This document shows, piece after piece, positions 57,662 to 63,633 of a DNA stretch of 64,000 nucleotides. The stretch's first letter is position 1. Every line of letters begins with the position of its first letter. The DNA is from Bacteroidota bacterium. Its GTDB lineage: Bacteria > Bacteroidota > Bacteroidia > Chitinophagales > LD1. The stretch is from positions 53,021 to 117,020 of the forward strand of contig CANJZE010000011.1 in the NCBI GenBank assembly GCA_947479455.1, read 5' to 3'. Under the pieces are notes generated by a model. It saw nothing but the letters and a program-made list of their open reading frames with translations. It did not search any database and was not told where the DNA came from. The translations under genes and the position numbers were made by a program.

Positions 57662-57691
57662 AACCCCTAAATCCCCTAAAGGGGACTTTGA
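57662..57691. repeat. CCCCT-type palindromic repeat, copy at the adhesin-sprF junction
   Basis: The 30 bases beginning AACCCCTAAATCCCCTAAAG are identical to 60662-60691. A CCCCTAAAGGGG dyad forms the core. It fills the junction between the adhesin and the PorP/SprF gene. Confidence 0.93.
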
Positions 57692-59432: not shown

Positions 59433-60661
59433 TACATATCAATATTGTACTCCTTAATCTTACGGTAAAGAGTGCGTTCAGAAATTCCTAAATCGTGTGC
59501 GGCATCTTTGCGCTTGTTCCTGTATTTTTTCAATGCTTTAATAATCAACTCGCGTTCTTTATCGGCAATGGAAAGTGACTCTTCCACCGTTTCAGAATCG
59601 TCAAAACTCTTTTGGTCAATCACCACAGCTTGCTTGTTGGCTGGTTGCGAAATAATAATCGGTTGGTCTGGATTCTGACCTCTGAAATCGGAATTCTGAA
59701 TTTGGTTCTGACGAATGGGTTCGTTTCCGTTTTGATTACTGATGCCGTAAACAAATTGTTTAAGGTCGTTGAAGTCGTTCTTCAAATCAAAGATGAGCTT
59801 GTAAAGAATTTCGCGCTCCGTAAAACTGCCACCACCACTATTGTAACGCGCTTCGGCAAGAGCCGGCAAACGGTTATCGGTAATGTCGGGAACAATTTGT
59901 GAAAGCTCCTGTGCGGTTACATCTTTGTCTATTGCAAGTATAGAAACCTGCTCAGCTACATTCTTCAACTGACGCACGTTACCAGGCCAGGTATATTTTA
60001 AAACCAATTGCTTCGCATCTTCTGTTAAACGTATCGAAGGAATTTTATTCTTCTCCGAAAAGTCTGTTGAAAATTTACGGAAGAGCAAATAAATATCATC
60101 ACCTCTTTCGCGCAATGGCGGAATGGTGATAGGCACGGTAGAAAGACGATAGTATAAGTCTTCACGAAATTTTCCTGCACGAACAGCTTCCTGTAAATTG
60201 ACATTAGTGGCTGCCACTACACGCACATCGGTCTTCATTACTTTACTTGAACCCACACGAATGTATTCGCCTGCTTCGAGCACACGCAGCAAACGCGCCT
60301 GTGTGCCGTGAGGCAATTCGCCAACTTCATCTAAGAAAATAGTTCCGCCATTAACCGATTCGAAATAACCTTTGCGTGCATCGCTTGCACCGGTGAACGA
60401 ACCTTTTTCGTGACCGAATAATTCTGAATCAATAGTGCCTTCGGGAATTGCACCGCAGTTAACTGCAATAAATGGATTATGTTTTCTGACACCAAGCTGA
60501 TGAATAATTTGCGAGAATACTTCTTTACCTACTCCGCTTTCTCCTGTAATTAATATGGTGAGCTCAGTAGAAGCAACGCGTTCGGCAATGCTGATAGCGT
60601 GGTTAAGCGCGGGCGAATTGCCTATGATTCCGAATCTGTTTTTAATTGTTTGAATTTCCAT
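59432..60661 (-). CDS. Sigma-54 interaction domain Fis-family transcriptional regulator
   Basis: The 409-residue activator lacks a receiver domain and starts directly with the AAA+ domain. Walker A is GESGVGKE (about 40-47), the sigma-54 contact loop is GSFTGAS (GAFTGA with Ser), and Walker B is GGTIFLDEVGE; an arginine finger region follows. A C-terminal Fis helix-turn-helix is AAHDLGISERTLYRKIKEY. A period-7 block at 59671-59711 codes the linker NQIQNSDFRGQNPDQ. The absent sensor domain implies control by abundance or by another protein. Gene order miaB - activator - lptE is common in Bacteroidota. Confidence 0.92.
   Translation of the reverse strand: MEIQTIKNRFGIIGNSPALNHAISIAERVASTELTILITGESGVGKEVFSQIIHQLGVRKHNPFIAVNCGAIPEGTIDSELFGHEKGSFTGASDARKGYFESVNGGTIFLDEVGELPHGTQARLLRVLEAGEYIRVGSSKVMKTDVRVVAATNVNLQEAVRAGKFREDLYYRLSTVPITIPPLRERGDDIYLLFRKFSTDFSEKNKIPSIRLTEDAKQLVLKYTWPGNVRQLKNVAEQVSILAIDKDVTAQELSQIVPDITDNRLPALAEARYNSGGGSFTEREILYKLIFDLKNDFNDLKQFVYGISNQNGNEPIRQNQIQNSDFRGQNPDQPIIISQPANKQAVVIDQKSFDDSETVEESLSIADKERELIIKALKKYRNKRKDAAHDLGISERTLYRKIKEYNIDM
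59671..59711. repeat. Period-7 repeat (ATTCTGA type) in the sigma-54 activator linker
   Basis: The heptamers GATTCTG, ACCTCTG, AAATCGG, AATTCTG and AATTTGG are imperfect copies related to the leuS ATTCTGA block. They encode the Gln/Asn-rich linker between the AAA+ and DNA-binding domains. Confidence 0.72.
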
Positions 60662-60691
60662 AACCCCTAAATCCCCTAAAGGGGACTTTGA
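60662..60691. repeat. CCCCT-type palindromic repeat upstream of the sigma-54 activator
   Basis: An exact 30-base copy of 57662-57691. It fills most of the 37-base spacer between miaB and the activator gene. Confidence 0.93.
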
Positions 60692-60698
60692 TTTGCCT

Positions 60699-62444
60699 TT
60701 AGTTTTTTAAATAATCTTCACCCGCCTTTAGTTCCTCCCCTTCTGCTTCATCCCGCTTATGCGGGAAGGGGAGATTTAGAGGGGTTCCAATCAATGTTCC
60801 TGATGTGCAGCGAATAACTTTTACGGTAACGTAATCACCGGGTTTAAAGTTTGCTTTGTCAAACACAATAACTTTATTCTGTGTGTTGCGGCCATAAACA
60901 TCTTCATCGTTGCGCGCAGAAATTCCTTCTACCAATACTTCGAAAGTTTTGCCTACATCTTCTTTATTTCTTTCGAGCGAATGAACGCGGTGAAGGTCAA
61001 CTACTTCCTGCAATCTGCGTTTCTTCACTTCTTCGGGAATATCATCTATATGATTTTTCGCAGCCACTGTACCGGGTCGTTCGTTGTAGGCAAACATGTA
61101 AGCCATTTCGTAACGCACGTGTTGCATCATGCTCAACGTGTCCTGATGTTCTTCTTCGGTTTCGCTGCAATAGCCGGTAATTACATCGGTAGAAATTGCT
61201 GCTTCAGGAACAATTCTGCGGATAGCCGCAATACGCTCCATATACCATTCGCGGGTATAAGTGCGATTCATCATTTCAAGTATGCGCGAGTTGCCCGATT
61301 GCACAGGCAGGTGAATGTACTTACAAATGTTAGGATACTTCGCCATCATGTGCAACACATCATCGGTCATATCTTTGGGATGCGAAGTAGAAAAACGAAC
61401 GCGAAGGTCTGGAGCAACTTGTGCTACCATTTCCATAAGTTCTGCAAAGTTGACTACGCGTTCTTCGTATTTGGCTTCTACTAGTTTTTTACCTACAAGT
61501 TTAGGGTCGTGACTGAAACGATAGGAGTCAACGTTCTGCCCAAGTAGTGTTACATCGCGATATCCTTTTTCGTATAAATCTTTTGCTTCGGCTACAATGC
61601 TTATGTAATCTCTGCTGCGCTCTCTGCCTCTGGTCATTGGCACCACACAAAACGAACACATGTTATCGCAACCGCGCATGATGCTAATGAAGGCAGTAAT
61701 ACCATTGGTGTTTAAACGAACGGGGCTAATCTCAGCATAAGTTTCTTCGCGGCTCAAAAGAACGTTTACTGCTTTCTGTCCGGTTTCTGCTTCTTCAATT
61801 AATGATGGTAACGAGCGATAAGCATCGGGACCAACAACCATGTCCACAATCTTTTCTTCTTCGAGAAACTTTTCTTTGAGGCGTTCTGCCATACAGCCTA
61901 ACACTCCGATAACCGCACCGCGTTTCTTTTTCTTCACTGCCGAAAGGTGCATTAAACGATGGCGCACTCGCTGCTCGGCATTGTCGCGAATGGCGCAGGT
62001 GTTAATCAGAATTACATCGGCATCGAGAAACTGTTCTGTAGAATTGTAGCCCGCATTGTTGAGGATAGAAGCTACTACTTCGCTATCGGCAAAGTTCATT
62101 TGGCAGCCGTAGCTTTCGATGTAATACAGCCCAGCCCCTCCCAACCTCCCCGAAGGGGAGGAGTTAACAGCCTTCACCTCCTCTAAATCTCCTCCGAAGG
62201 AGGAGACTTTAACAGCCGCCTCTTTTGAGAATACTTCCCCTTGGCGGGTTTCATCAATTACTTTAGCAACAGCCACCTCCTCTAAATCTCCTCCGAAGGA
62301 GGAGACTTTAACAGCCGTCTCTTTCACCGGTTGTTGGCTGTTTAAGCCATCCCCTTCTGTTTCATCCCGCGTTTCTTCGCGGGAGGAGAGGGTTGGGGAG
62401 AGGTTTTCAAAAGCTGTTTCGTTATTGTATAAATCTGTCTTCAT
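60699..62444 (-). CDS. miaB: tRNA-2-methylthio-N6-dimethylallyladenosine synthase with repeat-built extensions
   Basis: MiaB adds the methylthio group to i6A37 of tRNAs. The radical-SAM enzyme core starts near residue 105: [15 protein letters not shown] (Cys114), [27 protein letters not shown], then [22 protein letters not shown] with the CxxxCxxC cluster, and a C-terminal TRAM domain. From the ATG at 62442-62444 the protein has 581 residues, about 100 more than usual. The excess is an N-terminal stretch (12-104) made mainly of palindromic repeats, including [14 protein letters not shown] twice, plus a repeat-coded C-terminal tail ([20 protein letters not shown]). The frame is intact. Confidence 0.95.
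60730..60788. repeat. Composite palindrome coding the MiaB C-terminal tail
   Basis: Outer arms CCTCCCCTTC and GGGGAGATTTAGAGGGG match the nuo-operon repeat. The loop instead carries an inner hairpin CCCGC-TTAT-GCGGG preceded by TTCTGCTTCAT. It encodes most of the last 25 residues of MiaB in frame. Confidence 0.9.
62130..62168. repeat. CCCCT-type palindrome inside the miaB 5' region (A)
   Basis: CCTCCCCGAAGGGGAGG forms a perfect dyad flanked by CAGCCCCTCCCAA. On the coding strand it gives [12 protein letters not shown], directly before the conserved MiaB start. Confidence 0.9.
62175..62218. repeat. 44-base palindromic repeat inside miaB, copy 1
   Basis: The core CTCCTCCGAAGGAGGAG is a perfect dyad. 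The 44 bases are identical to 62274-62317. The copies are 99 bases apart, a multiple of 3, and both read [14 protein letters not shown]. Confidence 0.97.
62274..62317. repeat. 44-base palindromic repeat inside miaB, copy 2
   Basis: Identical over 44 bases to 62175-62218 and in the same reading frame. Between the copies lies CCCCTTGGCGGGTTTCATC, which recalls the other hairpin modules. Confidence 0.97.
62345..62406. repeat. Composite palindrome inside the miaB 5' region (B)
   Basis: CCCCTTCTGTTTCATCCCGC with a CGCG...CGCG inner dyad is followed by GGGAGGAGAGGGTTGGGGAG. It shares the TTCTGnTTCATCCCGC module with the repeat at the miaB 3' end. It encodes [19 protein letters not shown]. Confidence 0.88.
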
Positions 62445-62517
62445 AAAAGCGGGCGCAAAGATAAATTTTTGAATGATATGTTTAGACAAATTGTCATAGA
62501 CAAAAATCAAAAGGAAG

Positions 62518-62615
62518 TGTCATTTCGAGTTTTGGCTTTGTAAAACGAGGAATCCTGTATTTCTCAAGACACAATACAAGTTCCCTCGCTTCGCAGAGCT
62601 TCACTCGGGATGACA
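62518..62615. repeat. 98-base element with terminal inverted repeats
   Basis: TGTCATTTCGAG (62518-62529) and CTCGGGATGACA (62604-62615) are inverted ends with two G-T differences. Inside, TTCCCTCGCTTCGCAGAGC and AACGAGGAATCC are typical of dispersed TGTCATTnCGAG elements. It carries no coding capacity and lies upstream of the alpha/beta hydrolase gene. Confidence 0.75.
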
Positions 62616-62663
62616 GCCAGATAGTCATACACACTTTTTTCTTCGGTCTTTAAGAATTATTAT

Positions 62664-62684
62664 TTTCAAATTTCAAATTACCTC
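62664..62684. repeat. Short period-7 repeat before the hydrolase gene
   Basis: TTTCAAA, TTTCAAA and TTACCTC end 2 bases before the ATG at 62686. Confidence 0.5.
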
Positions 62685-62685
62685 T

Positions 62686-63633
62686 ATGAAATTTTACAAA
62701 AGCAAAGCGTTCATTATTACAGTAAGTGTTTTAGCGGTGTGGATTGGAGCCAATGTAATTTTATATGAACCCGATATTCCGGTGCATGAACTAGTCGCAA
62801 AATACACGAATGAAAATTCGAAGTTTGTGGAGATTGACGGCATGCAGGTTCATTATCGCATAGAGGGAGAGGGGGAACCTCTTGTGCTTATTCATGGCAC
62901 GGGCGCTATGCTGCAAACCTGGGATAAGTGGACGAATCTTTTAAAACCACACTATAAAATCATACGCATGGATATACCGGCTTTTGGTTTAACGGGACCG
63001 CGGGCAGATGGCATTTACAACGACAGTATGTATGTGAATTTTATAGAGCAGTTTGTGCAGGCAGTGGGAGTGGACTCGTTTAGTTTGGCAGGCAATTCAT
63101 TAGGTGGATTGATTGCCTGGAAGTATGCCGCGGCATACCCGCAGAAGGTGAAGAAACTGATACTGGTTGACCCAGGTGGTTTTCATGAAGTGAATGACAA
63201 AGGCGGCTCGTTTATTTTTACGCTGGCGCGCAATTATCCTGCGCTTACCGATTTGGTTTCGAAAATAGGCACACACTTTTTTGTAGAAAAAACTTTGCAC
63301 GAAGTCTATTATGATGATTCGAAAATTACGGAGGATGAAAAGAAGATGTATGCCGAGCTGAATCAACGCGCTGGCAACCGCCATGCGTTTGTGGAGCGTG
63401 CTCGTTATGTCCATCAATGCAACGAAGGCGAATTGAAACCAATTACCGCTCCTACTTTAATAATGTGGGGCACAGAAGATGTGCTGATAGATGTGCGCGA
63501 AGCCGAACATTTTACGAAGATTGGAAACTCGCAACTGGTTACTTACGATAAAGTGGGGCATTGCCCGCAAGAGGAAGTGGCGGAACAGTCGGCTGCTGAT
63601 GTGATGAGGTTTTTATTAGCCCCAACCCCCTAA
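62686..63633 (+). CDS. Membrane-anchored alpha/beta hydrolase
   Basis: The 315-residue protein has an N-terminal helix (AFIITVSVLAVWIGANVILY), probably an anchor or uncleaved signal. An alpha/beta hydrolase domain follows: oxyanion motif LIHGTG (68-73), nucleophile Ser138 in AGNSLGG, acid Asp265 in WGTEDVLI and His292 in VGHCPQEE. The organisation is of the epoxide-hydrolase/haloperoxidase-like group; the substrate cannot be read. The last codons (LAPTP) and the stop are supplied by a palindromic repeat. Confidence 0.88.
   Translation: MKFYKSKAFIITVSVLAVWIGANVILYEPDIPVHELVAKYTNENSKFVEIDGMQVHYRIEGEGEPLVLIHGTGAMLQTWDKWTNLLKPHYKIIRMDIPAFGLTGPRADGIYNDSMYVNFIEQFVQAVGVDSFSLAGNSLGGLIAWKYAAAYPQKVKKLILVDPGGFHEVNDKGGSFIFTLARNYPALTDLVSKIGTHFFVEKTLHEVYYDDSKITEDEKKMYAELNQRAGNRHAFVERARYVHQCNEGELKPITAPTLIMWGTEDVLIDVREAEHFTKIGNSQLVTYDKVGHCPQEEVAEQSAADVMRFLLAPTP

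Follow-up and report, generated by a model that had tools for sequence, protein, structure and literature searches.

Short palindromic repeats with a triplex-type layout appear to have lengthened MiaB of a Bacteroidota bacterium by stepwise in-frame insertion

The intrastrand triplex motif (PIT/TM) reads along one strand as a pyrimidine arm, a loop, a purine arm, a second loop, and a mirror third strand, with a stem of at least 6; according to Holder et al. 2015 (PMC4666352), its copies are dispersed, often in inverted pairs, and variable between close strains. The same study reports that the 23 copies of Escherichia coli K-12 are always intergenic and show no association with transposons, phages, or plasmids, and that the motif adopts the triplex form in vitro, with none detected in vivo. 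In-frame intragenic palindromes, including those of uvrA, polA, and tRNA-modifying genes, have already been published as well (PMC3733652). That source describes Rickettsia palindromic elements (RPEs), which have entered various unrelated conserved proteins in frame, a tRNA-modifying enzyme among them, and leave the proteins plausible, and REP sequences with RAYT (GTAG and CGTC families), short hairpins near gene ends that also occur inside some of the genes just named. The repeats reported here share the arm order and the dispersal of PIT/TM, the in-frame positions of RPEs, and the REP-like places near gene ends and within such genes. They differ from the E. coli motif, as described by Holder et al., in that many copies lie in frame in genes, in letters and flanks, and in a nested module absent from its description; from RPEs in host phylum, a shorter unit, triplex layout, and nesting, and probably in letters; and from REPs in that, by eye and among the listed copies, they generally lack a GTAG or CGTC foot (CGTC stands at one of 23 nested-module copies; the listed main-hairpin copies were examined too). 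A literature search, in which subscription journals were mostly uncovered, returned no report of in-frame triplex-type elements, nor of such elements in Bacteroidota. The finding joins triplex-type repeats, intergenic in E. coli, with the in-frame palindromes of Rickettsia and some REP-rich genomes.

The window (the whole stretch of DNA analyzed, 64,000 nt) carries a miaB gene whose product scores 453.8 bits against TIGR01574 (cut-off 355.3). The longest open reading frame begins with a TTG, which we rejected as the start in favor of the conserved ATG at 62444. The enzyme proper begins at residue 107, where the NCBIfam, Pfam, and structure 7mjv alignments all start; 7mjv is MiaB of Bacteroides uniformis. 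The gene and its parts are laid out as follows.

60699..62444, minus strand: miaB coding sequence, 581 codons plus stop (open reading frame, TIGR01574, conserved ATG)
62456..62463, minus strand: TATCTTTG box, promoter-like (TAT[AC]TTTG in 10/10 aligned sequences)
62406..62444, minus strand: native N-terminal codons 1-13 of miaB (alignment of relatives)
62265..62405, minus strand: insertion block 1 (residues 14-60), made of the composite hairpin and twin copy 1
62358..62384, minus strand: nested module of 27 nt, T-CCCGC-loop-GCGGG-ATGAAACA, within the composite hairpin (core 62359-62383; pattern match)
62276..62305, minus strand: triplex-type motif, twin copy 1, TCTCCTCC-TTC-GGAGGAGA-TTT-AGAGGAGG (motif finder)
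62235..62264, minus strand: native codons 61-70, between the two insertions (alignment of relatives)
62127..62210, minus strand: insertion block 2 (residues 79-106), made of twin copy 2 and another motif type
62177..62206, minus strand: triplex-type motif, twin copy 2, letters identical to copy 1 (motif finder)
62135..62161, minus strand: triplex-type motif CCTCCCC-TTC-GGGGAGG-TTG-GGAGGGG (motif finder)
60702..60785, minus strand: repeat-made C-terminal tail of MiaB, residues 554-581, with a nested module (nested core 60745-60765); triplex layout read by eye, the finder disallowing so long a loop
60663..60685, minus strand: intergenic triplex-type motif, ending one base before the next gene's ATG at 60661

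The TATCTTTG box is promoter-like, going by the Bacteroidota −7 consensus, and the gene starting at 60661 is sigma-54-regulator-like. A sequence-only reading of this locus had described two identical 44-base copies, palindromes all read in frame, and related copies in the spacers of the window. All three descriptions hold: 62175-62218 equals 62274-62317 over 44 bases, the ORF translation places every MiaB palindrome in one open frame, and related copies lie at 1009-1035, 1630-1661, 57663-57685, and 60663-60685. The repeat extension of about 90 residues that it had proposed is indeed in frame but is not one block, as native residues 61-70 split two insertions; a single 90-residue insertion is ruled out by this native motif in its middle. 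The C-terminal repeat and the nested module of MiaB are additional finds. Folded as single-stranded DNA, 62345-62406 and 62274-62317 reach z-scores of -3.88 and -3.80; 62130-62168 reaches -1.94, and 12/200 shuffles fold equally well.

The core unit consists, on one strand, of a pyrimidine arm, a loop, a purine arm, a turn of 2-3 nt, and the mirror image of the purine arm, this mirror third strand placing A or T opposite A. Among 23 distinct G-rich-tail hairpins of the genome, 21 match this mirror code perfectly, versus an average of 7.4 and at most 13 over 1000 trials of a tail-swap null; when a direct repeat is assumed in place of a mirror one, 1/23 fits. Six hairpins from relatives all match the code, but not above their own swap null, and 59/63 distinct strings from other Bacteroidota, among the matches listed, obey it at two positions left free in the search pattern. 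Three MiaB units (62135-62161, 62177-62206, and 62276-62305) have what defines a class II triplex (stem 6-15, loops 1-6 nt, purine-motif third strand, no more than one mismatch in longer stems); the two units that hold the nested module fall outside it, because their loop is too long. Judged by their letters, the core repeats of this genome have the layout of the class II intrastrand triplex motif, and the units would be able to fold as triplexes when single-stranded. The likeness to RPEs seen in the sequence-only reading holds for the way the elements behave, as dispersed palindromes inserted in frame; with their intrastrand-triplex layout, they are probably not RPEs themselves.

Older units also carry, in their loops, a second hairpin module of 24 or 27 nt. 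Relative to the genome G015, the added step is TCCCGC...GCGGGATGAAACA at the older hairpin's loop, 24 nt long in PolA and PnuC and 27 nt in MiaB; the MiaB core 62359-62383 corresponds to G000:C11:115379-115403, a place where G015 has no module. The module's length is divisible by three in 8/8 copies in genes versus 7/11 outside (p 0.10, only suggestive), a count from which three C-terminal copies and one doubtful N-terminal copy were omitted, out of 12 in called genes. The four MiaB units examined have 3 to 6 of their 6 frames open.

In the whole genome, the main-hairpin pattern AGTCYYCYN(1-9)RGRRGAYTTAGRKG has 43 matches and the nested-module pattern CCCGCN(2-14)GCGGGAYGAARC has 23, and the reversed control of each has none. 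A triplex-type motif finder gave 20 motifs in 509,552 sampled nt versus 0, 0, and 0 in three Markov-2 controls; given both comparisons, the repeats are not a product of chance. Of these 20 motifs, 8 fall within called ORFs, 1 is at an edge, and 11 are outside them, in a sample that includes contig C11 because of miaB, which itself supplies 3 of the 8; intergenic-only location, a property of the E. coli copies outside the structural definition, is therefore not found here. Since called genes make up 88-92% of the sample, coding sequence is under-used by the motifs but far from closed to them. All fetched loci of this genome, a set biased by the choice of loci, gave 23/65 motifs within ORFs, 7 on ORF edges, and 35 beyond them, and those of relatives gave 15, 7, and 40 (n=62). 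A looser count, with 45/105 hairpin clusters overlapping genes, includes chance matches and is superseded by the triplex finder. A third hairpin pattern, which was too strict, had 0 matches in the genome, Rfam over 60600-62700 returned one match (E = 1, below its cut-off), and the hairpin finder found 0 hairpins in 73 MiaB loci (L157-L229). Among 60 genomes, own included, the AGTC pattern occurs in 21: 14/18 of its own genus, 7/7 of genus g4, 0/5 in two other genera of the family, and 0/30 in the order's other families. Copy number ranges widely in this set, from 78 in G017 to none in G002, G003, G005, and G007. Across the phylum it occurs in 45 of 296 genomes, own included, and in 27/140 genera, with the reversed control matching three times in one genome. 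The nested module was found in 11/60 genomes, own included, all of its own genus, with one reversed-control match, in another genome.

The relatives of this MiaB provide empty, intermediate, and full states of the insertion sites. Their native N-terminus is a 53-residue stretch or similar, without repeats, and a DNA alignment of ten sequences shows that block 1 follows residue 13 and block 2 follows KEAAV, native residues 61-70 lying between them. Sites 1 and 2 are both empty in G004, G016, G001, G010, G011, G013, and G014, and another small hairpin occupies site 2 in G017. In G015 (MiaB 94% identical over residues 1-558), block 2 is present, and block 1 is shorter, lacking the nested module and twin copy 1. 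By this alignment, the blocks are insertions relative to the relatives. In database homologues, a YGCQMN-type motif was found in 101 of 120 listed proteins, and among these 101 the preceding stretch is 47 residues long at the median and 103 at most, the longest being due to a frame running on upstream; in this MiaB it is 111 residues long. The extension is not conserved in distant MiaB proteins, so this ground for refuting the sequence-only reading falls away. One database protein, P0121, matches this MiaB at 473/474 residues from 108 to 581, palindromic C-tail included, and its N-terminus is the empty form, the same as in G004. Such a mosaic could stem from recombination between alleles or from chimeric assembly; both P0121 and the genomes are assemblies, so its state may be a chimera. 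If the mosaic is real, MiaB can do without its 64 extra residues; from this comparison the N-terminal extension looks dispensable.

We compared 14 other repeat-bearing proteins with their counterparts in G015, G004, G017, and G010, as available for each; 12 of the 14 carry an in-frame repeat-bearing insertion missing from at least one relative, so that with MiaB the RPE-type combination of in-frame palindromes, unrelated proteins, and absence from orthologues recurs here. The twelve are a ketoacyl synthase, CarB, a Mur-ligase-like protein, NuoC, an M1-like peptidase, the flavodoxin-like protein DAR, AroE, an amidohydrolase (where the change is partly a replacement), UvrA, PolA, PnuC, and an alpha/beta hydrolase (whose insertion is common to G015). 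The two without an insertion are IleRS, unchanged in length, and DapB, in which a variable linker has merely been reworked. For the ketoacyl synthase, the name comes from database sources, and its length is 411 residues versus 372 in database homologues; the other names are presumed from the sequences. At the ketoacyl-synthase site, 5/49 aligned homologues (P0002, P0004, P0006, P0015, and P0016, judged from protein letters) carry other inserts that look alike at the protein level, as if the site were a hot spot. In AlphaFold models the inserted parts are of low confidence and without secondary structure. Residues 64-76, 78-89, and 93-96 of the ketoacyl synthase have pLDDT < 50, its insert ranging from 45 to 59 by block and its core being mostly > 90. 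In MiaB, residues 1-103 and 553-581 fall below 50, in a shallow model (17 sequences, mean pLDDT 66) whose core segments 226-244 and 259-275 do likewise. The models thus agree with the disordered extension envisaged in the sequence-only reading, and the MiaB insertions are likely a linker, predicted to be disordered, that is tolerated rather than useful; the case for tolerance rests on P0121 and on the intact frames.

We consider it probable (at roughly 0.8) that the MiaB extension was built up stepwise, as a stack of short palindromic elements that entered in frame on both sides of a conserved native stretch and form a tolerated linker. The repeats might instead be a 5′ leader, with translation beginning downstream near residue 105 and the repeats outside the protein. 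Misannotated starts are indeed common for REPs near gene starts, according to PMC3733652, and B. uniformis MiaB can be aligned only from residue 107. The native peptides that precede and separate the repeats have nevertheless been kept: in the 23 native N-terminal codons we counted 48 synonymous versus 11 nonsynonymous differences against 7 of 9 aligned relatives (G011 and G014 omitted), and the start ATG and the upstream TAT[AC]TTTG box are kept in 10/10 aligned sequences. Because of this mainly synonymous change and the conserved ATG and box, the N-terminal region is very likely translated. In the ketoacyl synthase, CarB, NuoC, and others, moreover, the repeats lie inside the protein, so that the start site is irrelevant there. 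A start after the repeats, which the sequence-only reading had named as fatal to its proposal, is hence extremely unlikely.

Growth of the extension by local duplication or slippage within miaB, rather than by insertion of dispersed elements, is very unlikely. The twin copies with their flanks share 62 nt at 90%, and since G015 lacks copy 1, that copy may be a local copy of copy 2. Local copying could account for this one unit but not for the others, and the same motif types recur at numerous unrelated sites in the genome as well as in other Bacteroidota. The repeats might also be kept for a function, either as structures in DNA or mRNA or because the disordered tail is adaptive. Both block 2 motifs are identical between this genome (G000) and G015 at 57/57 sites (L042 2260-2331 versus window 62127-62210), compared with 41/47 bases between the motifs and 1182/1299 (91%) in the rest of miaB, and this identity could reflect DNA-level constraint or conversion, not neutrality; many intergenic copies also, by eye, abut stop codons, a place for mRNA 3′ elements. 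Against a function stand the repeat sites that differ among close relatives, the unrelated proteins that carry repeats, the near-identical P0121 without the N-terminal blocks, and the lack of a regulatory trend reported by Holder et al. (PMC4666352). We consider retention for function improbable, and tolerated insertion of dispersed elements remains our reading of MiaB.

Because their places are empty in close relatives, the palindromes likely spread as mobile DNA, which, on the alignments, would have lengthened MiaB and twelve other proteins. We propose, tentatively and at somewhat less than even odds, that a mobile family of triplex units colonizes genes in frame, that later hairpins enter the loop of the first in three-base steps, and that lineage-specific disordered insertions arise in this way in core enzymes across the genus. 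On our main reading, non-autonomous hairpins would be copied to new places through single-stranded DNA, by some enzyme or by a replication-linked route. Selection would drop insertions that break the frame or the fold, those in loose linkers would remain, and the open frames in the units may aid survival within genes. The sister genomes show empty, one-element, nested, and several-element states in the same genes, and the building of disordered protein segments from what is likely mobile DNA would be traceable and testable within one genus.

No mobilizing enzyme was found in the genome (95.9% complete), where three Y1_Tnp matches have only other palindromes within ~1.5 kb. Signs of mobilization by RAYT were sought but not found, the three Y1 transposase genes adjoining palindromes of other kinds: an array of CGTACAT...ATGTACG hairpins (L039 2249-2589), a palindrome with 26-bp arms (L040 720-775), and an inverted pair of GTGTCGGATG hairpins (L041 1146-1169 and 1795-1818). 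At the insertions, no clean target duplication is visible. The heptamer AACAGCC occurs in the miaB region at 62166-62172, 62211-62217, 62268-62274, and 62310-62316, and GGCTGTT lies within 14 nt of 10/22 in-gene versus 1/34 intergenic motifs (p 1.5e-4; further loci listed for it are L139, L003, L002, L006, L144, L112, and L078). TGTATT or TGCATT stands upstream of 1/22 in-gene versus 21/34 intergenic motifs (p 1.3e-5), and by these two counts the flanks of in-gene and intergenic copies differ. We rejected GGCTGTT as a target site: its reading phase beside the motifs is its usual phase in this genome's genes (30/36), and because the same phase prevails there, the phase proves nothing.

Further arrangements of the repeats were seen in related genomes and between genes. 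The relatives G006 and G011 each have one gene of ~781-786 codons with two in-frame triplex-type motifs (L317 1550-1579 and 1730-1759; L305 1503-1532 and 1701-1730), and in another Bacteroidota genome six main hairpins ~200 bases apart form a regular array (G136:C2:135207-136168). In this genome, intergenic main hairpins often adjoin, by eye, the stop of a gene on the opposite strand, with TTA right after GGGGT (L077, L088, L091, L093-L096, L099, L104, and L106).
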